Source: Sipunculus nudus (Eukaryota > Annelida > Sipuncula > Golfingiida > Sipunculidae). Taken from it: a stretch of DNA of 64,000 nt. Location of the stretch: positions 18,096,729-18,160,728 of the forward strand of contig CM049314.1 of the NCBI GenBank assembly GCA_026874595.1, given 5' to 3'. Shown here one piece after another: positions 41,101 to 63,450 of this stretch; the stretch's first letter is position 1; every line of letters begins with the position of its first letter. The translations under genes and the position numbers were made by a program. The notes under the pieces are model-generated. The model ran no database searches and was not told the DNA's origin. It saw only the letters and a list, made by a program, of their open reading frames with translations.

Positions 41101-44100
41101 TTATCTGTATACCCTTCTCCAAAATATGTAACGAAAAATCTTTAACGTTACATAAAAAGCGGAGAAACCTTGTCGATGTTTATCTCCCCCCCCCCGGCTG
41201 TTAGTCTGTTTGACTGCTAGCACGATTACATACAATGAATAATATATCCCATTTAACTTGTTCTATAACAGCACAGTTTATGCGTGGTTTGTCACAGAAA
41301 CTACCATTGTAAAGCAGGTTTTATTAAATGTAGTCACCCTAGATCATCCCCAGTGACCCGTTTTGCGTATGAAACCCTATGGCACTCAAAATGAATGAAA
41401 CTCTCTAATGTGAGCCAAGTGGTCTTCTTGTTACAAAAATTACATATCCGCTCCGGGTTGATATGATAAAACCATTAAGAATAAAACCCGCAATGTTATG
41501 GAAATAAATCACAGCTGACACCAATGTTTAGGCCCTCTGTCCATGCAATGCATATGTTTGTGATTAAACCTTACTTAATAGGGTTTAAACAGAGCTTGAA
41601 TACATTTCTGAAGGAATTCAGGATATAAAAGAGATAATGTGATATAAAGATTACTGGACAGGGTAGCAAGATACTACACAAAGCAACCAAGGGAGAAAGC
41701 CGAGATGGTTCTAAATACAAAGGAAAATTGCCAGAGAAATTGGGATGGGTCAGCTTATTGAAATGAGCATGCCAGATGAATCAACCCAAGCAAAAGGTAT
41801 CGGGGAAAGGATATGGGGGAATTGGAATCTTTGCGGGGGATAATGTTTTGAAGAAGGTATGGTTGTCAAAGGACATACGTATGAAACTACAAGCTCGGAT
41901 CAGATTCATCTTCGGTGAAAGAATATCTTACAGTTATAAAAAAGAGTTGAAATGATTCATTAATATAATTTACTACTGACTTAAGATAGTACAACCGCAA
42001 ATCAGATACCAACAAATTAGTAATTTTCAAAATTGGGATGTTCCAATGGCTTAGGGAGACTTTTTAGTCGTGCTCAGAGAAACACACCACTTAATACTTT
42101 CTAATATGCACACGAGAGCAAAAAATGTTAGTATTACCGTCTAGGCCGTGTACTCGAGCTGGTAACATAAACGAATAATAGATCAGTCATGTGAAAATAC
42201 AAAGAAAGTAAAACACAGAGACCAACAGGACAGGACATGGTACATGCACTGAAAATGTGGCAGTATATACACACACATATAAATAAATATGACGATTATT
42301 GCTTCATATACTCGAATGCTTCATACATTCCATAAGCTGGAGCGGTGTTACTCCCACATGCAAGCACCAACAAAGCCACGCTTATACTCTATAATGTTGG
42401 GAGTTATTTAAGAGAATGTGCATTGCTAAGTTAAGGCAACATTTTGAGCCAAGCAAATACAGATGTACATATGTTAGTTGGTTGAGGATTGTAGATACAG
42501 CGAGTCGTACTGTGTATTTTGGCTGAAGTCAGTAAAGCGTCAGAACACAGTGGAGATCACCTTGATACCAAGTTATAGATTTTCTGAGATTTATAACAGA
42601 GTTAAGCGTCTGTAGGTGCATTTCATAGCTCTGGATAAATGTTCGTTTATATACTGTTTCAGGTTCTGTACAACCTACCGGCTTTAACGCCATGTCCCCC
42701 TCGTGCTGAGGTGAGAAATTTTCATTAGACAGTTTTATGTTTGATCACATATCTTTAGACATAAAAGCCCATTTGTTGTTAATAGCACATGAAGTATTAA
42801 TGAAATGACTGCCATGCTCAGCGTACAGGCAGAGGTATCCGTGCCAATCCCGACCCTTTCCACAGCTTTTAGGATGATAATTGACATCCAACTTTTTAAT
42901 TTGAAATTCTTTATAAATGCACTGAAGTTAGAAAGACACATTTAATCTTCCACGTTTCCGGGACTTTTCTTTTACTATTATATCTTTATATGTTAATTGG
43001 TGAGATATTTTGCCTGACATAAGTGTAATCTTAGGTCAAAATTCTCCTCGCATTTGTCACTGAGCAGCACCCTTCAGGGTGCAAAACCTCAACTGCTCTT
43101 ACAAGAATAGAAATATAAAACATATAAAACAGGCTTGCATAGTTCGTAATTTTGAAACGCGATACATTAGGCATAAAGACAGACTGAATACTATACTTTA
43201 TCTGTGTTCCAAATTAATGTTTGCGGTCAACATTTATTCCAAATTTCAAATAATCTATTCTTGCTGTACCCTGGGGTCGGCTATTTGTAACTTCCATGCT
43301 TCCATATATGCTTTCTCATATGAAAAATCCATTTTTTTGAGACGACGTGCAAGAATTACGTTGATAGCACTTATAACGCATAAATAAGATAACAAATAGA
43401 AAATGAAAGATCATATTCCAAAAAATAAAAAAAATATCTGAGTTTAGGCTGAGTTAACTTAAATCTGAAGCGTTTTTTTATTGAAAGGAGGGTGAAATTG
43501 AAACGAAAGAACCTACGTTTCTTCTTAGTAAAAGGTACAACAGTGATAGATTATACAATGTGAGAATAACGTAAAATTAAGAGTTTACTGGGTGATAACT
43601 TACCGATTGTATTCAAGGCACGTCGGAGCTCATAACTGTTGAAATGACCGCTTTCATCGGTGTCGAACTGTTTAAACACGGCCTGGACAAAACCATAGAC
43701 AAATTCAATATGTGGCCTTACAGACTACATGTCTTTATTCCATTCAATGAAAAAGGCCTTCCTTGCAAGGTGCCAGTGAATCTTGGGTTTCCATTGTTTC
43801 TAGATCTACAGAGATTGATATAGCTTTCAAATATACTGTCTTATTATTGATTGCCAATATACGCAGGGGTTAAAAACTGATAAAATTACGTAAACTTTTA
43901 TCATATTCCTATGGATACTGATTGATATAAATTATTAAATTTTACATATAAGTTGTATAGTATAAGTATATATGTGTAAAGGTAATATAAATAAGCTGTC
44001 CTTACCTGCCACGTTTCAATATCCTTGTACAGCTCATGGAACTCGTTGATTCCCAGTTTCCCTGTAAAGTCCGCCTGAGGGAGGCTAAGGTCATACATGT

Positions 44101-47100
44101 AGATTTTTTAAAGGTAAATACATGGTACTGGTCAATCCTTGGAAATATGGTGTGAAAAGTCGGAATTTATTGTGTGTAATTAAAAAGGGGAGTCTCAATT
44201 ATATTTTAACTTGTTTCAATTCTAATGAAAAAAGTATTCTCTCTAAAATACTTAGTTACCTTACATAGCTGAACGTAATTCACGCGATTTTTTTGTGTGT
44301 GTGAGAATGCTATTGAAAATAAGATACTGCTTTACTCATGAAACAACCTAACGTGCCTCAATGGAACGAAAAGTGACATTTATTCAAAGATAATGTACAA
44401 CACATCAAATTGTACTGTATCTAGTCACAATAAGATAATCAAACTAAAGGTATAAAATTTGAAATTTATATTCTGATATCCAATTTCACCGTTGCAACCC
44501 AAATTAAAGGAAACCCGATTTACAATTCTACAAAAGTCTTTCAAAAGGATACGTCTCTCATTGATACCATGCTACGGCAAGCTTCTATATTAAAGCCATC
44601 GAACCCGGCGATACCTGAAATTATATCGACAAGCTTCAATATTAAAACCATCGAACCCGGCGATACATAAAATTATATCGACATGCTTCAATCTTAAACC
44701 AATCGAACCCGGCAGTTCCTAAAATTATATCGACAATTATTATCGTGGTGATCAATAAAGTTGTCGTACTTTACATTCCTAAACTTGTGTAAAAGACAAT
44801 GGAACAAGTGACCCAGGGGTCATGATGCTCAGCTTATCTTTGACACTGAGAAATTCTATCAACTATTTATGTTATGATCTGGTAAAAAAGATGTGTTAAG
44901 AAACCTTGCATAATTGGTAGAATGCCTTCTAGAGTTCTCAATATTATTATTATTTTTTTTTTTTTTTTTTTTTGCAGATAGTTCTAAGAATATAGGTTAA
45001 AGTGATATTTAAGGTTTCCAAGATGATTTTACCAGGAACTCCTGGATGCTAAGATAAAGTTTCTATGTCACACTGCTATGACTTGTGATCATGTTGCCTC
45101 ACATAGTCCACAGAATATAGGTCACAGTGACCTTATTTTGGATATCCAAGGAGATATTACAATGACCTCCTTTAACCTTTAGAAAGGAATTTTTAGCTTC
45201 AACATTAAAGTTAAAATATTTTGCTACAGACTTCCTCGGTAATGAAAATGATGTTTTCTACTCGTAGCTCACAGAATATAGGTCACAGTAACATAGTTTA
45301 ATGCTTCTATGGACATTAACCAAGGACCTCCCTGAATGTTAGATTTGATGATTCTAGACAAAATGGATACAATTTATGCTCCGACTGATTCTCTGGGCGC
45401 TCCAAATCATGTTTTCGGCCAGTAGCTTGCAGAATATAGGTCACTATGACCTTATTTAAGGTTTCAAAGGAGCCTTTCCCAAGACCTACTCGGTTGTATA
45501 GTAAGACGTTTCTGGGTCAAATGGATAAAAAATTTGCCCTGTCTAAAATCTGGGTGCTCAAATCATTTTTTTAGCCAGTCGCTCGGAGAATATGGGTCAT
45601 CATGACCTAGTTTCAGGTTTCCAAAACATTTGCCTACAACCTCCCTGGATATTGCTTTTGAAGATATTAAGCTCATGGATACAGTTTGAGCCAGTTTGAC
45701 TTTCAGATCTCACAAATCATGTTTTTTTCTATAATTCGAAGAATTTAGGTCAAGGTGACCTTATTTCATGCTTTCCAGGACATTTGCCCAGGACTTCACT
45801 GAATGTCACATTAGAAGATTATAGCCCGAATGGATACCATTTATGCCCCGTCTTACTGGGTCTCTGAGTGCTCCAAATCATGTTTTTGGCCCATTGCCCG
45901 CATATTATTGCTATATATTGTCTGCAAGCAAAGCCTTTGACCAATGTAAATATGTTGGAAAATGGACAGCAAATAAAAATTTCAGGAGTTATAGGAAACC
46001 TGCCCAGAACCCCAATGGACTTCATAATAGACAGTTCCTAGGAAAATGGATACAATTTGTACCCTGTCTGTCTGGGTGCTCAAAATCATGTTTCTGGTAA
46101 ATAGCTCGTGGAAAAAAGGTCACCATGACCCAATTACCTTTTTTCCAAGGAGAATTGGCAAGGGATACCCTGAATGTCATGTTAGAATAGCCTAGGGCTG
46201 ATGGATACAAATTGGGCTCTGACTGCTTAAAATTATGCTTCCGGCCAGTAGCTTGCAGAATATCGGCCATTATGACCTCATTCTAAAGTTCAAATGTAAT
46301 TTGCCCAGGACCTAGGACTAATACCATCTGACATTGAAGGTACTCATATCATGTTTTTAGCCTGTCACCTGCAGGTTTCCTGTGGGATTAGCCAATATCT
46401 CCCTGAATGTCCCTGGACTGTTCAATAAAAGGTTCAAAGTAAAATATATACAATATGTACCTTGACTGTCTGGATGCTCAAATTAATTTTTTTTGGCTAA
46501 AAGCGCATAGAATATTGCCTTGGCAGCATGACGTAATTTCCGGTTTCCAAAGAGATTTGCCTATAACCTCCCTAGATGTTGCTTTAGAAGATTTTTGTGC
46601 CCATCTGGCATTCAGGGTGCTCAAATGACACCTTTTCCCTGCAGGCTGCAGGATATAGGTCACAGTGATCCAGTTTCATGTTTCCAAGGACATTTGCCTT
46701 GGATCTCCCTGAATCATATGTTTGAATATTCTAGGCCAAATGGATACAATTTGTTCCCCGTCTGTCTGGGTGGTCAAAATATTTATTTCTGCTTAAGTTG
46801 CAAAATAATGGTTACAATGTCCTAATTTTAGGTTTCCAAGTAGATTTGCCTAAACCGCCCAGGAAGTTGCGTTAGAAAATCCTAGCTCTAACAGATACAG
46901 TATTTGCCAGTCTGACATTCAGAGTGCTCAAACTCATGTTTTCGGTCCATTGGTCACAAAATATAGGCCACCATGACCTAATTTCAGGTTTCCAATGAGA
47001 TTTGCCTAGAAACGTCCAGGATATTGTGTTAGAAAATTCTATGCCTGACAGATACGATTTGTCTCCATCTTACATTGAGGGTGTTCATATAACATATTTT

Positions 47101-50100
47101 TCCTATAAGTCACGGAAGATAATTCAAAGTGACCTGATATAAGGTTTCCAAGGACATTTGCTTAGGACCTTCCTAAATGTCACGTTGGAGGATTCTAGGC
47201 CTAATGGATAAAATGTGTGCCCCATCTGACTTTCTGGGTGCTCAAAAACTTGTTTTCGGCTTGTAAGTCACAAAATATAGGCAAACATGACCTGATTTAT
47301 GTTTCCAAGGAGATTTGCATAAACCTCCCAGGAAGTTGCGTTAAAAGATTCTAGGCCTAACAGATACAATTTGTGCCCATCTGACATTCAGGGTCCTCAA
47401 AATGATGTTTTCGGCCTGAAAGTCACAAAATATAGGCCAACATGACATAAATTCAGGTTTCCAAGGAGATTTGCCAAGAAACTCCCAGGAATTTTTGTTA
47501 GAAAATTTTAGGGCAAACAGATACGATTTGTCCCCATCTTACATTCAGGGTGTTTATATGACATCTTAAACGTCACAAAATATAGGTCACTATGACCTAA
47601 TTTAAGGTTTCTAACGAGATTTGCCTCCCTGGATATACAGTAAAAAGTTTCTAGGTCTGAAGGTTACGATTTGTGCCCTATTAACGGACGGACGCCGGAC
47701 AAAGGATGAACGCTATTGCTCAGATGACTTACAGTGTGCTGAGCTAAAAAAAAGACTCTGATGAAACCTATAGTATACTGGGTCAATTATAACTCCAAGA
47801 CTTCATGTAGTTATACTTTTGATCTTTCCATAGAGATCATGGTGGACTCAGTAAAAATTAGGCCCTCCTGCTGACTTCCGTATAAATTTGGCCGCGCCGC
47901 CATCCGCGTGTCCAATAAAACTTCCTGCCTGGGCTACCATATGCAAAGTACACAGAAGCACTGCTGGCGCTATGTTCATACACCCGGCCAAAAAAAAATC
48001 CATATCTAACTATGACACTTTCCACCCTTTGCATAGACCATAAATAAATTACAACGCCGAAACAGACGTGGACTGAGAGAAAAACATTAAAATTTTTAAT
48101 TATAGAGACGGTAAACAACAGAAAAAATTGTTTTTGATTCATTGTAAATAAAGGGTTTTAACTCCGTGGATTATATTCGATAATATCACGGATAATGCAG
48201 ATCTATGACCATAATGAAATAATCGCATAAAAACACAAATATTTATCATATCTTATAAACACAAATCATGGTAGGGTATGAATAAAATATTACAATACAT
48301 ATTTTTCAGATATTTTGGCAATAAAAATGGTCTTCAACTCAAGAATCACTTTCTATCATTAACAAAAATGAAACAGCTGAGAAAGCAAAAGTGTAAGGAA
48401 TTTATATTAAGTTAATATGTGACTTCACTCACTTTCTCCGAAGGCCCCACTGAGGATCTCCAGGAGCTCGTAGGCGTCCAGTTCCCTGTCTGAACCAGCC
48501 TTCTCCCGGAACTCCTCCTCTGTGGCGTTCCTTTTGTCTTCATCTGATTCCACTTCCGGGGCAGGATCATCTTCCTTAAAAACAAATAAATATAATAAAG
48601 AATGATCATTAAATTTTATTTGATTAATTATCATTATTCTTAAATGTTATATGTGTATCTTCTATCTTCTTCTGTCTATCCATATACGGTACTACTAAAA
48701 TTGTTTTTTTTTCTATTTGTCCCAGAAACCCCGCAGAAACAGGCCAAGACAGTGGGCCAGTTTTGCTATCAGCGTCCCTAACCTACAGTTTGCACACCAA
48801 TTCGCACACAATTAAATTCCAGGGAGCATCACATCATAGGTTTGTCGTACAACATCACATCACTCTCCAACTCGCCATTGCTGACCTTGACTTTGGCCTA
48901 CTTCCACAAAAACATAAAAAAAATAGTTTCTTATCGACCACCAGACGTCGCTACCTTACAGGTCTTGGGATTTTGCACCCTACGGGCCTGGGGCGTTCGC
49001 TACCTTACGGGTCTGGTGACACTCTACGCGGCAATATACCCTTCCTCTGCAACGGGAACCACAGGTCCCCATTTACTAGTACTTTATATAAAAATTGAAC
49101 CACTTTGATGTTGGTGGTACTTCCCTACCAGTACAAAAGCTGACAATGTAAATGTAATAGCTGTAATGCCAAAACATAACTAATATATTGAAATTTCCGC
49201 TTTTGTAGAATTTTAGATGAAATTATATGGGCGAAAGTGGTTTTATGCCAGCGCACTGAGTATTGTTTAATATTTAAAATCGTCATACAAGGTTTTCATT
49301 TGATTTAAAATCAGTCGCCAGATGGCGCGTGATCTATTTAATGGTTCACGTGCAGGAGAAATTCTTAAATTTACCATTACTGTATCCCGTTTGTACTCAA
49401 AAAGAAGTACAATAACCAAAATGCCAGAAACACGCATGCACTAACAACAGACCGACCGAAAAATACTGCAGTAAGCTAAGAAAATGTTTTTACATAACAC
49501 AATTTATATTCGTTCTTCTGGACTGAGAAAAAAGTTATACTTGGATTACTCACAGTGGGTCCGGACACTGATGTAGCGTCATCAATCTCTCTGAAATGAA
49601 AATATTGTACGGGTGAGGATTTGGTCCTTGGGCCCTTGTTGAATTAAAAATGTCAGTATTTGAACCAAAACGTATATATGGCACGCATAATGTCATAACT
49701 TGTTGTTATCCTGTTGCATTTTACAGAATACTAGTGACTTCAACGATAAAATTGTTACTTATTTTAAATATTTTATTTCTACACAAATTCTGACATTGAG
49801 TGTCTGTGCTATTTATGTTTATTGGGCAGTGTATACATGTGTGCGTGTTTAGGCGTCGAATTTGAAACAACTTTAAATAACAAACATGAACCCATATAGT
49901 CAAGATTAAATTATTACAACATAGTTTGTACTGTTATATATTATACATTAAATTTATCAACTTGAACAGGTATCTGAACAGAATGTTGAAATTGTTGATT
50001 AAAAACCCGAATAAAATATTTTGTAGACGCACTTGCTTTCTGCCTGCTTTTCTGTGAAAACTCTCAACAAAAAGTCTGCTTCCTCTCCGGGTTCAAAGGT

Positions 50101-51430
50101 CGATGGCACAACGACGTAATTTCCGGGGGCGAGTTTGTGGTGAGAGGAGACCTCTCTCATGTTGATGAAGTTGGGTGAGCGGGCTATACTGCGGTTCTGA
50201 GAGAAGAAGCGTGGCGGCAGATTTCCAGATATATCGTCTTCCAGCTATAAAATTGAAAAACATTATATGAATAGACATATCAGGTTTTACAACAGTCTGT
50301 GGTTTCAATACAGAATAGGAGCATGAATGTATAAAATTATCAACACTGTCACTGAGTATATTGAACAAGTGGCCAATGGGCCATGACGCTCAGCTGAATT
50401 CAAAGAACCTTGAACAATGGGCTAAAATGGTTGACACAGTGCTCTTAATCATGCATTATGCCACTGGATATGTAGGTACTTTAGATATGTAGTTATAGTG
50501 ATCTTATTCTACATCCAGTTGCTTCCATCTGTGCCCATCCGACTAATAATGTGTTACAATCATGTTCTTTCACACAGCTTGCAGAATATAGGTCATAGTG
50601 ACAATATTTCAAGTTTCCAAGAAATTTTTACAGGAACTTCCCTGGATCTTAATTAAAATTCGAAGTTTCTAGGTCCAACTGTTACCAATCATGCAACTAT
50701 GCCCTATAGGATGCTCAAATCATGTTCTTTCACAAAACATGCACAATGTAGGTCACTTTGACCTAATTTCTGGTTTCCAAGGAGATTTGCCTAAGCCTGA
50801 CTGGATGTATAGATAGAAAATTCTGGGTCTTACAGTTACAGTTCGTGCCCTATTAATAGTCAGACTGCTTCATTTGAAGGTCTCAATAAAAGAGAAAAAA
50901 ATGCGTTAACATTTAAAAAAGGTTCATGTGGCGCCACCAGTCGGCAGGAACTAATGAAACACTCCATCTAATACTTATAAAAGGAAGTCGGTCCACCTCC
51001 GTTTGCAATGTTCTCTGTAACCGCGTTAAATTTTTTTTTTGACCTCCATGGGTTTTCAGTTAGAAGTGTTCTAGATCCAATGGTTACGATTTTTGCCCTG
51101 TTAACGGACGGACAGACAGACGGACAGCTAGACAGACAGACGGACAGACAGAAGGACAACGGACAAAGAGTGATCGATGGAGTACGTTCACTTTGCATTC
51201 GGATAATATCATACGGAAATACTCGATAAGAAAGGTTGTAGGGGGATGCTTTGGAGAGAGACCGGTTTTGAAGGGAAGCTATATTTTTAATGTGCACATC
51301 TCTTACTGTTTGCGCTGAAGGTCGATCTATTGGAGGTTTCGGTTATATAAGAACTGTTATTATTATTACCATCGTTAATTTTATTCTTTTTATTATTATC
51401 ATTATAATTATTATTATTATCACTATGAAA

Positions 51431-51468
<38 letters not shown>

Positions 51469-52560
51469 CATCCCAATTTTTAATTATTATTATTTTATTA
51501 TTATTATCATCATCATCAAACAGAATATTAAATTAATATACACTAGAAAAACAGTTATATATAGATTTGAAAAATATCTCAAGTTCTCACCAGAACGAAA
51601 ACACAGAATTATTAAAGACGTAGAGAAAATGACTTCACGATTATTGTAAAGGTGCGGCATCTGACCTGGTAAACCATGTATCCCATAGTGACGTTATCCT
51701 TGCCTTCCGTCCGCATCTTTCTGCGTCCTTTCTGCATCAGTCCGATGATGACCAGCCCCAGTCCGTCCTCATCATCCTCCGCCACCTCGTTAACGGTCAC
51801 CCGGTACTGAGGGTTGGTCCAGAACGTCTCTGTAGATACAGTATAACCTCGCTTAATCGACAAATTTACATACTCCAAGATATAGTCGAATCCACGTGTT
51901 TTCTTTGCTTTTAACATAGGTCTCTCTCTCTCTCTACCAACCACATGTTTCTAATTTTTATAGTAATTTACTCAATGTGGATGAGTATGAATTGCGCATT
52001 GCAGAATTAAGCCGCGCTATTGCTACTTAGCATGTTTTGGTGTTTAACGAATTTAATTATATCTAAACCTGTCATGCCGTGAGTATTTGTGTTAGCCGCT
52101 GAAAGTGTTTCATAAACTGACGGTCAGCAATGCACTATCAGTATAAACTGTCATATATTAGTTATATGGCTTGCCGCTAGGTGGTAGTACTTATCAAGGA
52201 CAGTGCGACTTCGCAATATTGCCAGAGTGGCTTGCAGCTTTTCCTTGCTGTGCATACTTTAAGTTCAGCCACTCCCTGCGATGACGCGGTCCTACATCAA
52301 CTGTATACCTAAATATACCTAAATGCATGCGAGCTAGGGAGAATAGTTAAGAGATTCGCCTGCTGTGACGCGCCAATCTACCCACCTTGTATGTGTTTCT
52401 GTGCGTGTGTGCATGTCTTAGATGGGTAATTTGGACATCAGCCGCTTTGACGTGCTTCTCTACCAACCTTGTTTATGTTTCTGTGCGTGTGTGCATGTCT
52501 TCCATGGGTAGTTTGGACATCCGACGCATTGACGCGCCACTCTACCCACTTTGTATGTCT

Positions 52561-52597
<37 letters not shown>

Positions 52598-55500
52598 CAT
52601 GTTTTACATGGATAATCCGACATCCGCCGCATTAACGCGTCACTCTGCCCATCTTGTATGTGTTTGTGTGTGTGTGTGCATGTCTTACATGGGTAGTTTG
52701 CACATCCGACGCATTGACACGGCACCCTGTCCACCTTGTACGCGTTTGTGTGTGTGTGAACATGTCTTACATGGATAGTCTCGACATCCGCCGCATTGAC
52801 GCGCCACTATATCCACCTTGCATGTGTGTGTGTGTGTCTTACATGGACAGTCTCGACATCCGCCGAAATGACGCGCCACTCTACCCACCTTGCTTGTGTT
52901 TGTGTGTGTGCATGTCTTACATGGATAGTCTGGACATCCGACGCATTGACGCGCCACTCTACCCACCTTGCATGTATGTTTGTGTGAGGGTGTGTCTGTG
53001 TGTGTTAAATGGACAGTCTCGACATCCGCCGCAATGACGCGCCACTCTGCCCACCTTGTATTTTGTGTGTGCGTGCATGTCTTACATGGAGTCTGGACAT
53101 CCGCCACATTGACGCGCCACTCGGCCCACCTTGTATGTGTTTGTGTGTGTGTGTGCATGTCTTACATGGGTTGTTTGTACATCCGACACATTGACGCGCC
53201 ACTCTGCCCACCTTGTATGTGTTTGTGTGTGTGTGTGCATGTCTTACATGGATAGTCTGGACATCGGCCGCATTGACGTGCCACTCTGCCCACCTTGTGT
53301 GTGTTTGTGTGCGTGTGTGCATTCTTACATGGGTAGTTTAGACATCCGAGGCTCTGACGCGACACTCTACCCACCTTGTAAGTGTTTGTGTGAGTGTGTG
53401 CATGTTTTACATGGGTAATTTGGACAGCCGCCGCTTTTACGCACCACCCTGCCCACCTTGTATGTGTTTGTGTGCGTGTGTGCATGTCTTACATGGGTAG
53501 TTGGGACATCCGCCGCTTTATCGGGCCACTTCACTTGCGTGCATTTGTGTCTTACGTGGGTAATGTTGACATCCGTCTACGTTGAGGCGCCACTCTACAC
53601 ACCCTTCATGAGTTCGTGTGCGTGTATGCGTGTTTTACGTCGGTAGTTAGAACACCCATCTGTGCCGGGGCACCATTCTGCCCGTCTTGTGGGTACGTGT
53701 ATTCGTGTATGTGTGGGTGTCTTACGAGGATAGGACAGTGGCTGCGTTGACGCGCCACCCTACCCACCTTGTATGTGTGTGTGTGTTTTTGAATGTGCGT
53801 GTATGTGTATCTTACGAGGATAGTTAGGACATCCACCAGCGTTGACTCGCCTTCTCCAGCTGCCGTTCTCGGCCGTGGACTCCCACCTCTGAATGTCGTC
53901 AGCGACCTCCCCATCGTCTCCGGCGATCAGGGTGTCAGGACCAAGGAAGCAGATCTCCAGACGCTGGAACTCCTTGGTAAAGTCTTCAAATGACATCCTG
54001 AAAGAATTTGTAAACATTATATTCACAAATTCAAATTATAAACTTTCTTGTCGTCATGGATAATGAATCTAATGTATTTAAATTATACGTGAACTATATA
54101 ACTTTACAGGTTTATATATGGACGAGACTATAGAATATAAATGTCATAACCTGAAGAAAATACTCCAGACCTATTTAGATTTTATCCTGTTATCTTTGCG
54201 CGAGCTGGGGTTCGGCATCGGGACATGTTGCTTCGTGGCCACTACAATGCTCCAGCACTTTCGACAAATCAGTTATTTTGCCTTTTATGACTTTAACACG
54301 AACATTGACATTAAGAATACTGTTTCTACGGTATAATGGACACCTGGGTATTTTTGGTACCTGGGACTGAGGTACCTGCAATTTTAAAGTATATGATAAT
54401 TTAACCTGGAAACATAACACTTGTAGGAGAAGGAATCACCTTGTGAATCAAATTTCATGACATTTTCAAGACTTTTACAATATAAAAACATCTTTTTGTA
54501 TAGAAATTAAAAAAAATGAAAATTAATGACTTTTATGATAACCTTGCGCTATAGGGAGCAAGCCTTGCTGTAAGTTAAAATAATGAGGCCTCAGAATCAT
54601 AACATTAGTCATATTTGAATGTTCGATAAAATTGTTGCTATAAGACATAGAGAAGGAATCACCTTGTGAATCAAATTTCGTGACATTTTCAAGACTTTTA
54701 CAATATAAAAACATCTTTTTGTATAGAAATTAAAAAAAATGAAAATTAATGACTTTTATGATAACCTTGCGCTATAGGGAGCTAGCCTTGCTGTAAGTTA
54801 AAATAATGAGGCCTCAGAATCATAACATTAGTCATATTTGAATGTTCGATAAAATTGTTGCTATAAGACATAGACTTGGTGCTATTTTTTTTATTTAAAT
54901 GCAGTATGAAGTCGTATGTTACTTTTCTATGTTAAAACATTTACTTACACCCAGTCCCATATCTCCTCTCCCTGCCAAAGCATTGCTTTATTTTTTTTCT
55001 TTACGTGAAGGTTACCTCTTCTATTTTTCGGCTTAAAAATGTACAATGTGCATCTGCAAAACTCGTCTCGGTTTCGGGATAAAAAACAGGGCCCCAACAC
55101 ATATTTCTCGTTTGAGAGTGAACACGACCATTTGGCACAAGTCTTGAAATTAGGTTTGCCGAGCGTGACTCGCCCTGGGTAGGAGGAACCAACCATGGAT
55201 TATCACCGCTCCTCGGCTAAACTTAACGGTCATCCACTGGCTCTAATATCTGTGCTCTACCCTTATTCCACAGAATCCCTTACCAAGCATCATCTAGGAT
55301 GATGACTGATGTCATTTTGACCCAGAATTGCTTCTAAGGATTTCCCCAAACGTTACTACAAGTGCTGTGGTAATAAAGATAAGGACTTCCTAACACTTTA
55401 TGTTTTTACAATTGTACCTTTGAGAATATTGCCTTACCAGAACTCCCCGTCATGGCTGAACGTCAGACCCATCGACTCCCGCTCCTCTTCAGGAATGAAC

Positions 55501-57174
55501 TGCCATTCCTCTGATCTATAGTACATATAATTGTAAATGTCAACTAAAGCATTAACATTTAACAAATAAAATACATGAAAAATAGTAAAACAGCATCCAA
55601 CTGGTAATTTATAATTGTCATATATTAAACGTAGTGATATTTAATCCATCACTAGTTTACTGATTATGTTACACAATAAGCTTAGTGCACGCTAGAATCA
55701 ATGATTTAACCATGATTCATGGAGATGAATTTTATAAAATGTCAACTGTATGCTATACAACATGCGCTATAACTGTACCTAACAGAATTCAACTAATATC
55801 TTTTAAATTCTGCATGATTTCTTTGCAAAAGGTATAGAATATGTAGAAGGATGAAGGGAAGATCGTGCAAATACTGCAGTGTCTCCATCATACCAGGGGC
55901 ACAGGAAGTATGTCTGTCATCACTTTTGCAAGACATGCTTAATAATATATTTCCAAATACAATACACATTATGATTTGGTCTTTGACCCGCTGATCATCA
56001 CTGTATGTACACGTAATAGGAAATTAAGTGAACATTATGAGAAATGTCGTATGTATGTGTGATTTTCAGTGGTTTCACATTTGCATTAATGAACAAGTGT
56101 GTTGTTAAACCGCTATAGATGCAACAAAAATATAAGAAGATGGTTAATGCATGCGTTTAAATGCATATGTCAGGTCAAATTATATTCATGAGACCGCGAA
56201 TTGCCATAATAAGGAACATTACCTGTCACTCCATGCCCCATTCCATTCGCATTCATTGCCCCAGGGGTTACGACAGCGGACAAGGGGGATTTTTCCCGTC
56301 ACCCTCGGGGTCACCACGTTAACCTGAGATGGGGTTATTATTAGTGCCGGTAACGGGTAAATGCATGCAAAGATGTTAACGCCGAAATTGGAAAGTTTAT
56401 GAAGGAATAGTAGCAAAAGCATAATATTCACACCAAGAAAAAAAGGTACGAGAAAACCGAATTACACCCGATACACTGTGCTTTGTCTACACCATGTGTT
56501 TGTAAAGTAAGTGCTCTTTGTTTTTTTTCAGTTTTAAGGGTTTGTCCACAAGAGGGCGATAGAAAATATTGCGACAATCACCAAACGTGAAAGAATTTAT
56601 TAATTTTCAGCAGGCCTTAATTAAGCGTCCAGTGTATCTCGTGAGAGGGAAGATTTCTTTGAAGCATATTGATGATCTGAAGGACTATTTGAGCATCAGC
56701 ATGTTGCTGTAGAGAGTGTTGCCCCGTAAAAAAAATCCCCAGCCGGGGGTTTTGAACAATGTTGTATGCTGCAGATAAAGCGCTGTGTAAAGAGCGTATC
56801 AAATAAGCTGCAAGTTGAATTGTACGCATTTCAACATATTTGTTCACGCCGTCTGGTGTCACTGTTCATAGGTAATATAACCGGCAGCATATTGACAAAG
56901 CCAAATATGTGATGTCTCTGCTTCCTCTGGAGAGTAACACCGAGCGAACTGAAAATGTCAAACGCATTGAATACTTTTAATACCACTCAGTTGTTGTTTT
57001 CTGCTACTATCCAGTTTCAGTACGGAAATAATTCTGTTCCTTTTATTATCATATTATATCGGGAACCAATCTCTTTATCGACAATATAATTATACAAATA
57101 AAAGGAATAGTTGGTGGTTGGTGGGTATCTAAAATAAATAAGTTCTTGAATTGCGCATATAAGTTTTTGTGTTT

Positions 57175-57209
<35 letters not shown>

Positions 57210-60200
57210 ATATATATATACATATATATTTTCAGCCTATGAAAGATATAAATATTTGTTTTGTTATTTCATTTATGTGAACAAAATCTATACCAATGTT
57301 TTTTTTTATTATTTACGTTACACGGGGGATGGTATAGAAGGGGGCCATTGGTTTAGCATGGTCATTGGTATATAATTTTTACATGACATTTAACTATATT
57401 TATCTGGATATTAGGAAACTTGCATAGGTAAGTAATTGTTAAAACAGGTGATAATACTAAAAGATTATCGATCGGGGTGTAAGAACGTCAATATATTATT
57501 CTGTTGTATATTAGAGTGGTCAGAGGAGTGAAAGCCAGTGATCATGCAAGATACAAACATAAAGTCAGAAATAAGAATTAAGCGTATCACTCAATGAAAC
57601 AAACCAAACTCCTACAACAGTAAACAAACCATACACACACGTGACATGCAAATTAGTGAGAAACTGAAATGAAAAGCAAAACACCATATTAGTTGACTAT
57701 TACAACTACTTATATACAGTGGTGACATCTGGAGGGGGAAAACACTTGACTCAAGACATGGCCTTTTATTCGAAATGTGGTTAAATCTAATGATATTTCA
57801 AATTATTTCGTTTTTGACAGCATGAACGCAAATGTTCTATGATGTCTTACGAAAGCATTGTGATGGTGTGTTTTTCAAATGACCAAGTACTAATATATTC
57901 CAACCAGTATGAGATGACAGCTTATTATGTTTAAATAATCTCAAATCCTTCATTAACATGCGAATTTTTAAACTGATATTCATTATTTTAACAAATAATA
58001 ACCAAAGGCAGATCTTGTGCCTCGTGGTCATAGTAGGATCCACCAGATATCGCCACTTCCAAAGCCACAAATAGAATGACGTCCGACGAGCCACAGGTCA
58101 TGCAGTTTACTCCAGCGGGGCGGGCACAGTGGCGCCACCTACTTACTTATCGCTCCACGGTCCGTTCCACTCGCACTCGTTGCCCCACGGATTACGACAT
58201 CTGACCAAGGACAGTTCTCCCTGAAAACTCGGCACGTCCACCTCCACCTCACAGAAAATTATTACCATAACACTATCATTATGCAGTCAGAAATGGTGCC
58301 GTTATATTGCATAATATCATTTAATGCCTCAGGCCACACAGAAAAATAGTTATTCCAGGTTTCATCGGGGATGAAAATTATGTAAATTGTTTGTTTTGTG
58401 TAGTTTGTAATAGACGAAGTCCATTCAAAGGCAGGAATTAAGTCAGAGAGTAAATTCTGAAGTGTGTATATACATTGGTTATTAATTCAAGTATATGACA
58501 TTGTATAAAAAAGATTAAATAACATTACTTTGGATATTCTGAATCATTGTTACAACAAGTCGGTATACGTGTAGGGTAAAGATACATCAATACCCAGAAC
58601 GAGGCTGTACTGCCACATGACTTACCAGTCTGACGTCAGTCACTGTGTAGGCATGTCCGATGACCAGTCCATTGTCCAACTGTGCTTCTAGTTGATCCGG
58701 TGAAGCCTAGAATAAATTAATGTTTCCATATAAACTTGATTCATAGGAGTAGGACGCTATAACTGGACAATGTGTGATAAAAAGTGAAAAAGATTACACT
58801 TAACTTAAGCAGTATTTAAAATATTCTCCAACAATCAATAATGACCCGTCAATGCCGATCATGCAAGGTGTGATACACACGGTGTATAATGCAGACAAAC
58901 GAACGAACAAACAGGAAGAAAAAGGGTATTTCTATATACATACATGTACATTTATAGATATTGTCATTCAGCTGTCTATATTTAACATAAGCTTTGGCCT
59001 AAATTTAGTATATGGTTGGAATTGATTTTTTTTTGTAACTGGGACCGCTCTTTGTTAAATTAAAGGATATAAGTTACAATATCATCATTTATATTAAATA
59101 TTTAATATTGGTCTAATTCTAGAAGATAAGAATAATATAATTAAACAGTTTTTTTATTGTATTTGTTAAAACAATATCAGCTTATTTAATGTAATATAAC
59201 CACGAAATCATTTGCAGTATATTTGTGAAAACCATAATTAATAAAAAAAAAGACTTACGTCAATGGAACAGCCCATGAGAGAGAACCTTTTCCTGGCTTT
59301 CAGCATGTGAGGCAGCAGATCTTCTGGGGTTTCGTCTCTCAGCACGAAGCGCTCCACCACGCCCCCGGTAAAGTCCACCATGGCTTCACTCGTCAGTCCC
59401 CCACTCAGGTTCTCATAGCAACCGTACATCCTGGCGAGAAAAAATCATACCCAAGTACAGGAAGCGATTTTTTTAAAAGATATAGACACGCCGTTCATAC
59501 TGTCGCAGCGCCATGACTCTCTCGCCGTTGATGAAATGTTGTAACAACTGCTGCTGCAAGTTTGATAATTAAAAGCATTGGTTTCACATTAATTCATACA
59601 TAACATTTATCTAATGAACAATCTATACAATGCCTACAAGAGGAAACATGCAACATGGACAGTGGCTTTATTCGGAAAACAGCTGTAACACTAATTGTAC
59701 ACTCACATGTACCATTGCATTCACATACGAGGGTGTCGGAGATTTTTCCGTTCTAATGCAGTATATACACAAATAGATTTCCTTTCACTTCTGACATTAC
59801 AGCTCTTTACAAGATGTGTTCTAATCAGAAATAAGGGTCACTCTATCTTAGTATGTTCCACGAGAGGGAAACAAAGATTTTATAACGTGATTGGTTTTTA
59901 GGAATCGAAAGACTCAAACCTATGTAATAACATGTATTCTGGACACCTTGGTGAGGGGTAACCGGGGGTAATGTCGACTATATCATAGCTTACTTGGCAT
60001 ACGCCTTCTCGACCAGGGCTGTCCAGAACTCGTTGGTTGAGTCTGAGTGCATGTAGATGAGCTTGCCGTTACTACACGGGAGACGGTCGTCAATCAGTAC
60101 CTCCACCCAGCGACCGAACTGCCAGAAGTTGAACTTAAACATACCTGTAACACACATATACAGCGCATTTGATAGTTTTATTCCTTGCCTGCATCTGAAA

Positions 60201-63200
60201 GGGATGATAACAGGAATACTTCTCAGGTATTAATGTTCATGTCACAAGGCGTGGCACGTCGTCACGATGAACTGGCTTACTCCAGCCCTCTATATTAGGA
60301 TTTCGTTCTATCTTACTGGAATATATTGAAGAAAAGACAACCGGCACCGACATGGATGTGTTTGAAATATGAACCTATTATCAGAATGGGAGACTTGGTA
60401 CTGCTTCAAAAGTATTGATTACACAGGTTTCTCATTATGCATGGCAGGCGCACTTCCAAATTTGCTTTAATTTTGTCCCAAGCTGGTTCGGTACATTTGA
60501 CTTATAATTTAAAAGAGCACGACATTACTAGATTCTTGTCCTACCAGAGTCCGTGGCATATACATGGCAGTCATATATATTATTATAAAAGGTCCTACCT
60601 GGTTAACATGATTTTATAAGGAAAATTTTCTTGAGTAAAGGACAGTCGTAGAGTGAATCCAAAGAGGTCTTGGTTTATTATTTACCCTAATACGAGTTAA
60701 TAAACCGTTTAAATGTTTATATTCTATAATTCTTCTGTGTATCCTTATGGAAGGATGAATGGCTTGTGAAGTGGGGAAGTTATGGTCACACCACTGGAAA
60801 CACAACTATGGTTCAAGACCCATTACGGTATGAACGAATAACCAACGATTAAACCGATTAAAACTTAAAAGCCAGTATGGTGCTGATAAACCATTTCCAT
60901 ACCACCATAAAAATAAATGTAACCCACAGCACAAGTATATAATTCAGGCGGTGAAATGCACAGTATGTACCCACTTCGCCGTGTAGTACTGTGCGCATTA
61001 TTTTACTATGTGCTCCATGTTAGCATATCAACTGAACGCCTTTTGACACAGTAACCTACTCGTAACTACAGCATTATCAAATGTGCCCATTCACCTACCT
61101 TCTGAAAAAGAGTTTATGTGTTTTCTGGCTCCCTCTCTGTGTATATTAATGATCTAAGGGTTTTATACAGTTCTTAAAAAGGCCTTTGGGAAGGATGTAT
61201 GAACATGTGTGTCATCAACATGTTTGTTAACAAAGAAATGTTGACGGGTAAACATGTAATCTAAGGTAGTAGGTTGCATATATGCGTAGGTAGGATTTGT
61301 TGAATTTGTTTAATTTTGGCTGGTCCCCAATTATTATAAACACATTGATATAAACAAACAAGCAGCCTTGTCTATTTTTATGGTCTATTTTCATAAAAGC
61401 TCCATATAGGTGATTGGGCCCCTTTAAACCTGCCTTACCGCAGTAATCCTCTGAGAAGCTCTGGTTGGGAACAACCCGGTGAAGAAGCCTCTCATTCTGT
61501 GACAGTGCTGCAACAGCCGCCAGGAACCAGCAGTCACCTACAAGCAGATAGGAAGTTCATTTATTCTTCACGATGTTCAGTCCTGTACTGCCCATGAAAA
61601 CACGACATTCCGATTGAACCGATAAGGATTACTGTTGTACTTGTATTAGAGAGGCAAAACTAGTGTGTCCGAATATAATTTACTGTAAATAACAAATTAC
61701 TCCCATATTGACAGTTTTGTATGTTGTATACTGTATCCATTTCACCAATTACTACAATGAATGAATGATTATTAGGATTATTAAGATAGATTATTAAGAC
61801 TTAATAAGATAACAGTATTAACTTTGCCAGTGGGTTTTTGATTTTCAGCTTTTTTAAGTCAGTCTTCTGTAGGTCGTGTGAAACACGTGAATTAGACGAC
61901 GTTAGAAAAAAAAAGACAACATTTATTTTAGGCAAAACATTTTCGTCAGTGTTAGATAAATCGCAGACAAAACGTTGTACCTCAATTCGCATGAACTTTT
62001 TGGAAGTTCGATTGTACAATCATCAAACTTACCTAAAACACCTTGGTTCACATCTAGCCGACTGGCGCCATCTGTAAACATTTGGGGATCATCTGCTATT
62101 TCCTAAAGAACAAAATACCAATGATGTTTGATATTGGGCAAATCAAAACATGTTTTCATGTGAGGCGTTCCCATGCACCCCATGTATGACTAACTCGAAT
62201 GGAGGATTTTAAGATGGGGAGGTGTCTTATATAGCGAGGCGTCGTAAGGAGCGTTTTTTTTTAAAGGGGGGGGGGGGGGCGCTGGAGGTTTATGATGTAG
62301 AAATAGTTTATGCTGTAATGTTGCAGTCTGGTGTTGCTTCGGTCCTGTTTTCGACATTAACCGTTAATTTTCCTATTCCCGAGAGTTTATTGTTCAGTTT
62401 AAGGGACGCGCCCCCTGCAACCCCCCCCCCCCCCTTTCCGCTGCAACGTGACTGTTCGATCAAAGTCAAACATTCTTTAGCGTAAATATTGTGTCAGTGA
62501 GCCCACATTATCTGAGCTCGTCAACACTTGAATGGTACGAAATAAAAAGATAGTATGGTAATAGCTAATGTGTTGCCGACTAGGATTTTACATGGATTTG
62601 TTATGATAATTACATAATAGGATCCTCCCCGGTCCCTGTCTCAGTCTCAACACTTTCAGTGGAAATCGTGTACGTACTTTATGTGTAAACCTGCTGGCCG
62701 ACACACACATGCACACACCCTCACAAAAACATACAAACAGACAAAGATGAAAACAACCTTCCCGAGAGAAATTATTTGCAGACTCCGTGTAAATATCGGG
62801 TATGTAACGGATCATTGTCGTTATCTGGCTCAACTGGCAACTACATCATTATGCCACCGAGAAAAGAATAAATTTCTAATCTCCTAGCCTACAAGAGTCC
62901 GGGGCGTATGGCAATCTTGGTTTGTATTTTTAGAACAACCTACATTGTTACCTACATGGTCACACTATTTTTATATGAGAGGCAAACGTAGAGTGAATCT
63001 AAATAGGTTGAGTTTATCATTTACCGTAAAATAGGGAAAATAAAACAATCGAATGCTTATATTTTATAACTGTGTCGTGTATACCTATTGAAACAGGAAT
63101 GGATTTTAAAGGTAGGCAATTATCATCACACCTCGTCATTATGCCACCGAGAAGAGAATTACACTTACATGAGGTCTCAGCCATTCAATATCTGGGTAGA

Positions 63201-63450
63201 TAGACGGTGGATTTGTATGGAAGAGGGAGCTGTCAGCCGCAGGGAAGTCTGGGTCTTCCCATAGTGCACCAGACTCTGCACACTCCTGCTTTATTTCGTC
63301 ATAAGTCCTGGCTTGAGACTTCCGATTGCTGTACGCAGGTCGCCTGGTGTCGCCTCGGCCCGTGTCAGAAATGGTGGACGAGAGGTCATCGAGTTCACGT
63401 ATAAAACGAGACCCCCATCCTTTGAAATAACGACGGAATCCAAACGGCAT
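37121..63450 (-). CDS. Classical EF-hand calpain (calcium-dependent cysteine protease), 729 aa, 19 coding exons
   Basis: The nineteen exons, in transcript order and with matching phases throughout, are 63450-63169, 62102-62033, 61537-61439, 60144-59994, 59430-59259, 58706-58626, 58247-58147 (or its alternative 56323-56223), 55515-55438, 53997-53816, 51829-51666, 50244-50033, 49590-49554, 48574-48433, 44614-44553, 44074-44006, 43682-43604, 39418-39302, 37857-37793 and 37147-37121. They total 2190 nt including TAA. The protease core holds the catalytic triad Cys120 (GDCWFLAA), His276 (GHAYTVT) and Asn304 (RNPWG). A C2-like domain follows ([21 protein letters not shown]), then a linker and a penta-EF-hand domain with canonical loops [12 protein letters not shown] and [12 protein letters not shown]. 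It ends MTMYS, as classical calpains do. It acts in the cytosol by limited calcium-triggered proteolysis. The vertebrate orthologue cannot be assigned by eye. Confidence 0.93.
37793..37857 (-). CDS. Calpain exon 18 (EF-hand 5)
   Basis: The acceptor GTTAACAG precedes it and the donor GTGAGG follows. It encodes [20 protein letters not shown] and DE. The EF-5 loop is degenerate, as in other calpains, where it serves dimerisation. Reading through the donor would give a stop 12 codons later. Confidence 0.88.
37991..38206. repeat. TTA/AAT microsatellite in calpain intron 17
   Basis: A (TTA)n tract at about 38020-38090 and an (AAT)n then (TTA)n tract at 38105-38170 form a self-complementary low-complexity block. 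Confidence 0.9.
38805..38885. repeat. Degenerate AAT-rich tract
   Basis: Interrupted AATAATTATAAT-type repeat in calpain intron 17. Confidence 0.75.
39302..39418 (-). CDS. Calpain exon 17 (EF-hand 4)
   Basis: The acceptor TTCAACTACAG precedes it and the donor GTAAG follows. It encodes [28 protein letters not shown] and [12 protein letters not shown], the fourth EF-hand with a degenerate loop (Tyr at the first calcium position, Asp at the last). Confidence 0.92.
39419..43603. other. Calpain intron 16 (4.2 kb)
   Basis: Apart from the MITE candidate at 39971-40389, the intron shows only AT-rich sequence, a poly-A run near 39500-39513 and a C-run near 41187-41195. No exon was recognised. Confidence 0.5.
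39971..40389. mobile_element. MITE candidate, 419 bp, flanked by TTAA
   Basis: The left end reads AGGGACTCTCACATGTCGA. The right end read inward is GGGTCTCTCACACGGTGGC. They share GGG(A/T)CTCTCACA as a short terminal inverted repeat. TTAA stands on both sides (39967-39970 and 40390-40393), the piggyBac-type target. It lies in calpain intron 16. Copy number elsewhere is unknown, so this rests on structure only. Confidence 0.5.
43604..43682 (-). CDS. Calpain exon 16 (EF-hand 3)
   Basis: The acceptor GGTTTTGTCCAG precedes it and the donor GTAAGT follows. It encodes [20 protein letters not shown] and RALNTI. The loop [12 protein letters not shown] is a canonical calcium-binding EF-hand. Confidence 0.94.
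44006..44074 (-). CDS. Calpain exon 15 (EF-hand 2, second half)
   Basis: The acceptor TAGCCTCCCTCAG precedes it and the donor GTAAGG follows. It encodes [20 protein letters not shown] and TWQ. With the last residue of exon 14 it forms the canonical loop [12 protein letters not shown]. Confidence 0.94.
44553..44614 (-). CDS. Calpain exon 14 (EF-hand 2, entering helix)
   Basis: This 62-nt exon runs from the acceptor ATATAATTTCAG to the donor GTATCC and encodes [20 protein letters not shown] and D. CRSMV is the conserved helix of classical calpains (SCRSMVNLMD). Both phases fit exons 13 and 15, which do not fit each other without it. Its 5' junction is triplicated (see 44581-44736). Confidence 0.85.
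44581..44736. repeat. 52-bp tandem triplication of the exon 14 acceptor junction
   Basis: Units start at 44581, 44633 and 44685. In transcript sense each holds about 17 bp of intron end (TCGATATAATTTCAG) and 35 bp of exon start (GTATCGCCGGGTTCGATGG...GAAGC). The unit nearest the exon is the working junction. In the middle unit the AG has become AT. The outer unit keeps an AG, but splicing there would meet an in-frame TAA. Confidence 0.92.
44801..47750 (+). mobile_element. Pearl-like bivalve element with expanded ~158-bp core array
   Basis: The left end carries AACAAGTGACCCAGGGGTCA followed by TGATGCTCAGCT. About seventeen diverged core units follow, spaced 143-166 bp where measured. Each has AGAATATAGGTCAC.(A/G)TGACCT, TTTCCAAGGAGATTTGCC, a CTCCCTGGATGTT block and GATACAATTTGTGCCC. 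The right end has TTAACGGACGGACGCCGGAC, then GATGAACGCTATTGCTCAG and GTGCTGAGCTAAA. Left flank, tandem core, ACGG microsatellite and right flank is the published plan of pearl elements in bivalves. It fills calpain intron 13. No open frame is present, so it is non-autonomous. Confidence 0.72.
44945..44974. repeat. Poly-T tract
   Basis: Interrupted then pure T run of about 30 bp inside the left part of the pearl-like element. Confidence 0.9.
48433..48574 (-). CDS. Calpain exon 13 (acidic linker and EF-hand 1)
   Basis: An acceptor ending TTTTTAAG precedes it and the donor GTGAGT follows. It encodes an acidic stretch [14 protein letters not shown], then the start of the penta-EF-hand domain [20 protein letters not shown] and EILSGAFGE. 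The first EF loop is atypical, as in classical calpains. Confidence 0.93.
49554..49590 (-). CDS. Calpain exon 12 (37-nt linker exon)
   Basis: The acceptor TTCATTTCAG precedes it and the donor GTGAGT follows. It encodes [13 protein letters not shown], a flexible acidic linker between the C2-like and EF-hand domains. Its phases (2 in, 0 out) match exons 11 and 13. Confidence 0.85.
50033..50244 (-). CDS. Calpain exon 11 (end of C2-like domain)
   Basis: The acceptor CAATTTTATAG precedes it and the donor GTGCGT follows. It encodes [40 protein letters not shown] and [18 protein letters not shown]. The closing FLLRVFTEK is a strong calpain signature. Confidence 0.94.
50362..51190 (+). mobile_element. 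Second, short pearl-like element
   Basis: It has the same plan as 44801-47750 but few core units. It starts TTGAACAAGTGGCC..GGGCCATGACGCTCAGCTGA, has core units with GCAGAATATAGGTCATAGTG and TTTCCAAGGAGATTTGCC, and ends in a longer ACGG/ACAG microsatellite (51106-51157) and GTGATCGATGGAGTACG. It lies in calpain intron 10, same orientation as the first copy. Confidence 0.7.
51355..51525. repeat. TTA-rich microsatellite in calpain intron 10
   Basis: Interrupted (TTA)n tract with its purest part at 51434-51468. Confidence 0.9.
51666..51829 (-). CDS. Calpain exon 10 (C2-like domain)
   Basis: The acceptor ACTGTATCTACAG precedes it and the donor GTCAG follows. It encodes [13 protein letters not shown], an acidic loop [10 protein letters not shown], and [17 protein letters not shown] with GYMVYQ. 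FWTNPQ and LMQK are conserved in the calpain C2-like (CBSW) domain, whose acidic loop takes part in calcium activation. Confidence 0.95.
52360..53815. repeat. Minisatellite (~80-bp units) made of the calpain exon 9 / intron 9 donor junction
   Basis: About seventeen units of roughly 72-104 bp. On the plus strand each reads (T)CTTACATGGATAGT then GGACATCCGCCGCATTGACG, CGCCACTCT.CCCACCTTG and a TG-rich tract. The same order occurs at the true exon 9 end: CTTACGAGGATAGTTAGGAC, ATCCACCAGCGTTGACTCGCC. So each unit is a copy of the last ~37 nt of exon 9, its GTAAG donor and ~40 bp of intron. The unit nearest the exon (53721) shares CTTACGAGGATAG exactly. Open frames crossing the array (Cys/Val or Thr/His-rich) are artefacts. 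Confidence 0.9.
53816..53997 (-). CDS. Calpain exon 9 (protease core to C2-like boundary)
   Basis: The acceptor AATTCTTTCAG precedes it and the donor GTAAGA follows. It encodes [20 protein letters not shown], then [20 protein letters not shown] and NYP. SFEDF, GSWRR and AGGC..YP are conserved calpain blocks. The unusual run WRRRVN fits the family, so the exon is ancestral and the neighbouring minisatellite derives from it. Confidence 0.95.
54428..54873. repeat. Near-perfect 223-bp tandem duplication
   Basis: Copy 1 is 54428-54650 and copy 2 is 54651-54873. By eye they differ at about two positions (CATGACA/CGTGACA and GAGCAAG/GAGCTAG). It lies in calpain intron 8 and must be recent, or kept alike by exchange. 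Confidence 0.95.
55438..55515 (-). CDS. Calpain exon 8 (end of protease core)
   Basis: The acceptor ATGTACTATAG precedes it and the donor GTAAGG follows. It encodes [20 protein letters not shown] and HDGEF. The block S-x-E-W is the usual continuation of RNPWG...WSD in calpains. It accepts either version of exon 7, both of which end in phase 2. Confidence 0.94.
56223..56323 (-). CDS. Calpain alternative exon 7b (catalytic Asn)
   Basis: The acceptor ACCCCATCTCAG precedes it and the donor GTAATG follows. It is 101 nt, phase 0 in and 2 out, exactly as exon 7a. It encodes [13 protein letters not shown] then [20 protein letters not shown]. The catalytic Asn and following block are intact, while the first 13 residues differ from 7a at 9 positions. 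Joined after 7a it meets TGA at the fifth codon, so the two must be mutually exclusive. It is a duplicated, apparently functional exon. Confidence 0.88.
57175..57229. repeat. (TA)n microsatellite between exons 7a and 7b
   Basis: Nearly pure TA tract in the 1.8-kb intron separating the two alternative exons. Confidence 0.9.
58147..58247 (-). CDS. Calpain exon 7a (catalytic Asn)
   Basis: The acceptor ATTTTCTGTGAG precedes it and the donor GTAAGT follows. It is 101 nt and encodes [13 protein letters not shown] then [20 protein letters not shown]. It supplies Asn304 of the catalytic triad. It shares 23 of 34 residues with exon 7b, 19 of them in the last 21. Confidence 0.93.
58626..58706 (-). CDS. 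Calpain exon 6 (catalytic His)
   Basis: The acceptor TTATTCTAG precedes it and the donor GTAAG follows. It encodes [20 protein letters not shown] and TVTDVRL. GHAYTVT contains the catalytic His276. Twenty-seven codons, phase 0 at both ends. Confidence 0.95.
59259..59430 (-). CDS. Calpain exon 5 (protease core)
   Basis: The acceptor TTTCTCGCCAG precedes it and the donor GTAAGT follows. It encodes [38 protein letters not shown] and a helix ending SLMGCSID. [14 protein letters not shown] is highly conserved in calpains. Confidence 0.96.
59994..60144 (-). CDS. Calpain exon 4 (protease core)
   Basis: The acceptor TGTGTTACAG precedes it and the donor GTAAGC follows. It encodes [40 protein letters not shown] and [24 protein letters not shown] and [12 protein letters not shown] are diagnostic. 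Confidence 0.96.
60549..60800. repeat. Diverged intronic repeat, copy 1
   Basis: Shares ordered blocks with 62890-63135: AGAGTCCG.GGC.TAT, GTAGAGTGAATC, TTTAT.ATTTACC.TAA and TTATATT.TATAA, followed by a run of related sequence. Lies in calpain intron 3. Confidence 0.55.
61439..61537 (-). CDS. Calpain exon 3 (catalytic Cys)
   Basis: The acceptor ATCTGCTTGTAG precedes it and the donor GTAAGG follows. It encodes [20 protein letters not shown] and [13 protein letters not shown]. Cys120 is the active-site nucleophile. Confidence 0.96.
62033..62102 (-). CDS. Calpain exon 2 (protease core, before the catalytic Cys)
   Basis: The acceptor TTCTTTAG precedes it and the donor GTAAGT follows. It encodes [20 protein letters not shown] and GVL. 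The pattern F.DGASR.D..QG.LGDCW is conserved in calpains. Phase 0 in, 1 out. Confidence 0.94.
62890..63135. repeat. Diverged intronic repeat, copy 2
   Basis: Counterpart of 60549-60800 in calpain intron 1. It is bracketed by two copies of CATTATGCCACCGAGAA.AG (about 62847 and 63136), which could be a long target duplication or part of the repeat. Confidence 0.5.

Follow-up and report, generated by a model that had tools for sequence, protein, structure and literature searches.

A Putative Pair of Mutually Exclusive Exons Carrying the Catalytic Asparagine in a Classical Calpain Gene

INTRODUCTION

Exons 4a and 4b of OGDH are mutually exclusive. They are duplicated exons that serve as alternatives in a Ca-regulated enzyme, and the segment that they exchange includes the Ca-binding motif DADLD, according to the available part of the source (PMC9177970). 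In mammalian CAPN3, exon 6 (IS1) can be skipped, and in the mouse the splicing of this exon has been linked to the levels of Rbfox1 (available sections of PMC3536703). AplCCal1 of Aplysia has inserts a, b, and c between C2L and PEF as well as an alternative start (PMC5650170, in its available part); the phrase "mutually exclusive" does not appear in that text.

Here, we describe a calpain gene with two versions of the exon that carries the catalytic Asn, designated 7a and 7b. AplCCal1, a molluscan classical calpain, is similar in that it also has alternative transcripts, but the available part of its description mentions neither an insert between the catalytic His and Asn nor a duplicated exon pair (PMC5650170). 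CAPN3 is similar in that splicing acts on a part encoded within the calpain; however, as far as the available sections go, IS1 is a skipped cassette (PMC3536703), whereas here an exon with a catalytic residue would be exchanged for another. OGDH shares the use of duplicated exons as alternatives in a Ca-regulated enzyme, but it belongs to another protein family and, in the part of the account available, swaps its Ca motif (PMC9177970), whereas the calpain keeps the aligned Ca-site residues. The initial annotation of this DNA knew of no calpain arranged in this way. That statement holds for the open-access literature matches listed, and its scope stops there: among those matches, most of them judged by title or by the start of the abstract, none described a calpain whose catalytic exon is duplicated and used alternatively, and motif strings were not found in open-access papers. 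The mechanism is of a known kind; its location in a calpain is apparently new.

RESULTS

The host gene is a predicted classical calpain

The window, meaning the whole stretch of 64,000 nucleotides (nt) that was analyzed, is C9:18096729-18160728 of the 1.43-Gb host genome. Sixteen exons, with 7a counted as the seventh, run from 63450 to 43604 on the minus strand and give one open frame when joined. These exons, the alternative exon 7b, and the intron between the two are as follows.

63169..63450, minus strand: exon 1, with the ATG at 63450; calpain N terminus and start of PC1
62033..62102, minus strand: exon 2
61439..61537, minus strand: exon 3, with the catalytic Cys (GDCWFLA)
59994..60144, minus strand: exon 4
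59259..59430, minus strand: exon 5
58626..58706, minus strand: exon 6, with the catalytic His (GHAY)
58147..58247, minus strand: exon 7a, an acidic stretch of 13 residues, then 20 residues including the catalytic Asn
56324..58146, minus strand: intron between 7a and 7b, 1823 nt
56223..56323, minus strand: exon 7b, a basic stretch of 13 residues, then 20 residues including the catalytic Asn
55438..55515, minus strand: exon 8
53816..53997, minus strand: exon 9, end of PC2 and link to CBSW
51666..51829, minus strand: exon 10, CBSW (Calpain_III)
50033..50244, minus strand: exon 11, CBSW (Calpain_III)
49554..49590, minus strand: exon 12, linker
48433..48574, minus strand: exon 13, start of the penta-EF-hand domain
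44553..44614, minus strand: exon 14, EF-hand
44006..44074, minus strand: exon 15, EF-hand
43604..43682, minus strand: exon 16, EF-hand
39300..39428, minus strand: further EF-hand-like piece of 38 residues near 39353, with approximate borders, from one motif match

Judged by its sequence, the gene is a classical calpain (peptidase family C2) that is nearly complete within the window; its last exon was not located there. The Peptidase_C2 core (PF00648, cut-off 23.8 bits) scores 398.3 bits in the 7a form and 399.0 bits in the 7b form, and the CBSW domain, or domain III (PF01067, cut-off 21), scores 156.7 bits. Exons 13 to 16 resemble calpain PEF domains by sequence match. Alignment to solved calpains gives a complete Cys-His-Asn triad, with GDCWFLA in exon 3, GHAY in exon 6, and RNPWG in both 7a and 7b. 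The solved sequences matched were calpains 1, 2, 3, 5, 8, and 9; the two forms match the same 19 solved calpain sequences, and calpain-5 is the best solved match when only the segment around exon 7 is compared.

The two exons differ between the catalytic His and Asn

The triad of calpain-1 is Cys115, His272, and Asn296 (available parts of PMC4057710 and PMC10380737), and Glu302 and Asp309 are among the ligands of its second Ca site (PMC4057710, available part). In the alignment to solved calpains, His lies in exon 6, and Asn, Glu, and Asp lie in the end of exon 7 that both copies share. The residues aligned with Asn296, Glu302, and Asp309 are present in both 7a and 7b, as are the motifs RNPWG and EW.G.WSD, and the swapped residues fall between the catalytic His and Asn. 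As the initial annotation had proposed, the alignment keeps the catalytic Asn and exchanges the part between His and Asn. On this alignment, the swap affects an adjacent stretch and not the catalytic machinery; the triad and the aligned Ca-site Glu and Asp are identical. The His-to-Asn stretch is presumably a surface hairpin, as we assume from papain-like folds.

A recount of the two peptides agreed with the earlier numbers: the last 21 residues, with the junction residue counted, are identical at 19 of 21 positions, and the first 13 differ at 9. The net charge of these first 13 residues is −3 in 7a and +2 in 7b. The copies have two V, one P, and one G of this stretch in common, residues that may preserve its fold.

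Frame permits exactly one of the two exons

Exons 7a and 7b are each 101 nt long, enter in phase 0, leave in phase 2, have GT-AG splice sites, and have open frames; the coordinates and all these properties are as initially annotated. Joining exons in silico bore out the frame logic as well. The 6-7a-7b-8 join reads K-L-T-W-stop after 7a, so that TGA is the fifth codon when the junction codon is counted, and the 6-8 join, with both exons skipped, loses the frame. Since including both or neither breaks the frame, exactly one of the two is usable.

The splice sites had been called good, and this is true of the 7a donor; on a small matrix built from the other exons of the calpain gene, the 7b donor and both acceptors are middling, and none of the four sites lies outside the range of the other exons. 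The 7a acceptor ends in GAG, and the 7b donor is GTAATG.

At the DNA level, 7a and 7b are identical at 68 of 101 positions (33 differences), and their 60-nt flanks are unlike (18/60 identical upstream and 10/60 downstream). The protein of the 7a form finds 7b by tblastn with an E value of 4e-13 in the window, and the 7a peptide finds it with an E value of 1.3e-10 in the 1.43-Gb host genome; because of these values, 7b is not a chance match. There was no third copy of exon 7 in the window or among the genome-wide matches listed at the locus. A larger local duplication that took in exon 6 or 8 was ruled out, as no remnant of either was found between 7a and 8.

The shared end of both exons has been under purifying selection

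Between 7a and 7b, the last 20 codons show 15 base differences, with 11 codons changed synonymously and 1 changed in its amino acid. These data were compared with a dead-copy simulation in which one copy received only synonymous changes and the other was free from the start. Each run started from 7a or 7b at random, used substitutions only with a kappa of 2, and continued until the observed number of differences was reached. The simulated mean was 8.9 amino-acid-changing codons in the last 20, and 1 or fewer occurred in 0 of 20,000 runs. Death of one copy since birth is therefore rejected, as no run was as low as the observed 1 replacement against 11 synonymous changes. The changes in these 20 codons thus indicate that both copies were long kept working. 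The possibility that 7b is a dead duplicate had been raised at the outset; the changes argue against death since birth and are compatible with recent death. In 33% of the simulated dead copies, which underwent substitutions only, the frame was still open, so a lack of stops in itself says little.

For the complete exon, dN and dS are 0.25 and about 3 (saturated), respectively, which means that the duplication is old. The first 13 codons have 9 replacement changes and 1 synonymous change (dN, 0.75; dS, 0.43), and the dN/dS counts gave no signal of purifying selection there. Purifying selection is supported for the last 20 codons of both copies only, and the first 13 residues have either diversified or else been held loosely.

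Other calpain loci scanned in the host genome have one exon 7

When the 7a and 7b peptides were each searched against the host genome, exon-7 matches were found at at least 13 places in at least 12 calpain loci, two of them at the present locus, and among the 12 calpain loci listed only the present one had two. Sixteen calpain regions were taken from the genome, and the interval from exon 6 to exon 8 was scanned in 11 of them; L025 (exons 7 and 8 not found), L035 (exon 8 unplaced), L036 (exon 6 unplaced), and L037 and L038 (exon-7 match absent from the printed matches) were left out of the scan. No second exon 7 was found in the 11 paralogous intervals, each of which has one RNPWG exon. Among gene-strand tblastn matches in the 16 regions, the lone second exon-7-like match is a weak one in L027 (E, 0.12 to 0.23); it lacks RNPWG and lies upstream of exon 5. 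L005 gave weak pieces with E values of 0.07 (with stops inside) and 0.67.

In a tree of the protease core, made from the 14 of 17 sequences that had more than 100 placed residues, L024 and L025, the nearest relatives and on the same contig as the present gene, form a clade with it (support, 100). Among the closest paralogues in this genome, L024, L023, and L026 are without the pair and have one exon 7 each. The net charge of the exon-7 start, counted in these three single-exon loci, is +3 in L023, −1 in L024, and −4 in L026. Each of these genes therefore has one type, basic in L023 and acidic in L024 and L026, and the present gene has both. In a tree of exon 7 with 10 sequences (L030, L032, L034, and L035 omitted) and supports of 5 to 68, 7a is nearer L024 and 7b is nearer L023 with a support of 18.

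L025, at C9:4.03 Mb, has a stop in exon 5, and neither exon 7 nor exon 8 was found in the 10 kb examined; it is probably a pseudogene of the present gene's clade. In another calpain gene, L033 (C4:47.74 Mb), three copies of the start of exon 8 lie at 5059-5348 with a spacing of 106 nt, and only the last copy gives a full-exon match. The single locus given by the search of genome contigs, L001, was rejected as an eight-residue chance match on a bacterial contig with 65.5% G+C. The search of viral contigs found no relative.

How one exon might be chosen

The 1823-nt intron between 7a and 7b is longer than a simple steric block on joining the two would allow, and there are no U12-type sites at exons 6, 7a, 7b, and 8. 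Given ordinary U2-type sites and an intron of this length, exclusivity is not imposed by size or by a mismatch of spliceosomes. We found no excess of competing RNA pairing over shuffles among six pairs of pieces from intron 6, the 7a-7b intron, and the 7b-8 intron; each pair was compared with 15 or 25 shuffles, of which 4 to 22 equaled or exceeded it in stability. This test uses whole-piece energy with a TA repeat left out, and says nothing about single short helices. The introns contain inverted repeats of 20 to 25 nt with 80 to 85% identity, which mean little because the duplexes do not beat the shuffles.

Two candidate sites for a splicing factor flank the exons.

58099..58104, minus strand: candidate TGCATG, 43 nt downstream of 7a
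56364..56369, minus strand: candidate TGCATG, 46 nt upstream of 7b

We take TGCATG to be an Rbfox-type motif. The post hoc probability of two or more TGCATG in the four 100-nt flanks by chance is 0.013 to 0.025. The motif is within 100 nt of only 1 of the 15 other exons (exon 2) and within 100 nt downstream of the exon-7 match in none of 12 paralogous regions; it is 33 nt upstream of that match in one paralogous region, L032. By the Rbfox rule, a downstream site promotes an exon and an upstream site represses it. A factor of this type could favor 7a, which has the downstream site, over 7b, which has the upstream one. We infer that the simplest account of exclusivity combines loss of frame and decay with an exon-favoring factor: mRNAs with both exons or neither would lose the frame and then decay, and a tissue splicing factor, for which Rbfox is a mere candidate, would tip the choice to one exon.

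Repeats and other features of the window

The window also contains several repeats within the calpain gene. A tandem duplication of 223 bp with 99% matches is present in intron 8 (54427-54874). Intron 9 has a minisatellite at 52366-53530 (TRF; period of about 82, 14 copies), with a unit similar to the 3′ end of exon 9 together with its donor; 10 occurrences of GTAAGACA between 53725 and 52688 form a row of decoy exon ends. At 44578-44736, each of about three copies of a 52-bp tandem repeat spans the start of exon 14 and the preceding bases, so that extra acceptor-like copies lie just upstream. Intron 14 begins with GTATCCTTT (44544-44552), and ACCTTAGC comes just ahead of its acceptor, both as in U12-type introns; the donor of this intron scores far below the gene's other donors.

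Two stretches on the plus strand are C-type-lectin-like: 6268-6840, with a weak Lectin_C match of 23.0 bits (cut-off, 22.6), and 19266-19622, by eye, which gave no Pfam match at an E value of 0.001. An Rfam search of the window gave no match.

DISCUSSION

Exons 7a and 7b are probably a mutually exclusive pair in a predicted classical penta-EF-hand calpain gene. This predicted arrangement is well supported by the anatomy of the exons and by selection on their shared end. Each mRNA would join exon 6 to exon 8 through either 7a or 7b, and with either of them the protein would have the catalytic Asn, the RNPWG Trp, and the Glu and Asp aligned with the Ca ligands of domain II. The forms would differ in how the His-bearing strand is joined to the Asn-bearing strand, by an acidic stretch in 7a and a basic one in 7b.

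Some explanations concern the fate and use of the copies. We consider it unlikely that one exon died recently, that is, that it was long used and is no longer spliced in the present species. Tests of selection average over time and so leave room for such a loss, which would also suit the GAG of the 7a acceptor, the GTAATG of the 7b donor, the middling scores of both acceptors, and the frequency with which dead copies stayed open in the simulation. However, neither copy has lost its reading frame or a splice site, the four sites have scores in the span seen for the remaining exons of the gene, and each copy retains RNPWG, EW.G.WSD, and the residues aligned with the Ca site. Very improbable, in our estimation, is a frame-breaking switch in which regulated inclusion of 7a and 7b together lowers calpain output via mRNA decay and no second enzyme is made. 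Co-inclusion does produce the early stop, and the 1823-nt intron has ordinary sites, but a poison exon need not hold a catalytic segment, whereas here there are 11 synonymous changes against 1 replacement.

Other explanations concern the origin of the second copy. Gene conversion or insertion, and not tandem duplication, may have brought it in from a different calpain gene, so that the types of two paralogues were joined in one gene. The stretch of 7a is like that of L024 (VDIPGEGKLP) and that of 7b is like that of L023 (VEIKTSRKQGKIP), and the two are apart in the exon-7 tree with the support of 18 given above; yet 34 residues are too few to resolve such an origin, and 12 residues common to 7a and 7b are complete in neither L023 nor L024. 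We judge this origin to be improbable, and it would not alter the splicing interpretation. An assembly error, in which exons from two haplotypes or two loci were misjoined, is a general risk with nothing specific in its favor, and we regard it as extremely unlikely: the exons are 1.8 kb apart on a 79.8-Mb contig, in a window free of any N in which exons 1 to 6 and 8 each occur once, and a difference of 33 in 101 bases is far above allelic.

If 7a and 7b are indeed mutually exclusive exons, one gene probably yields two proteases that differ briefly beside the active site, a prediction drawn from the sequence. Swapping the presumed surface hairpin would alter contact with another protein or the ease of Ca-driven closure of the core, and not the chemistry. 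More tentatively, and as a possibility that we would not call likely, the choice by splicing between two proteases with oppositely charged His-Asn stretches may act as a switch of Ca threshold, partner, or substrate while leaving the catalytic residues unchanged.

If both forms are made, the isoforms would differ only at 9 of the 13 His-Asn residues and at two residues further on. The gene would then offer a clean natural test of the role of this stretch in Ca sensitivity and in the choice of partners and substrates, and the exon for a catalytic residue of a protease would join the known sites of mutually exclusive splicing.
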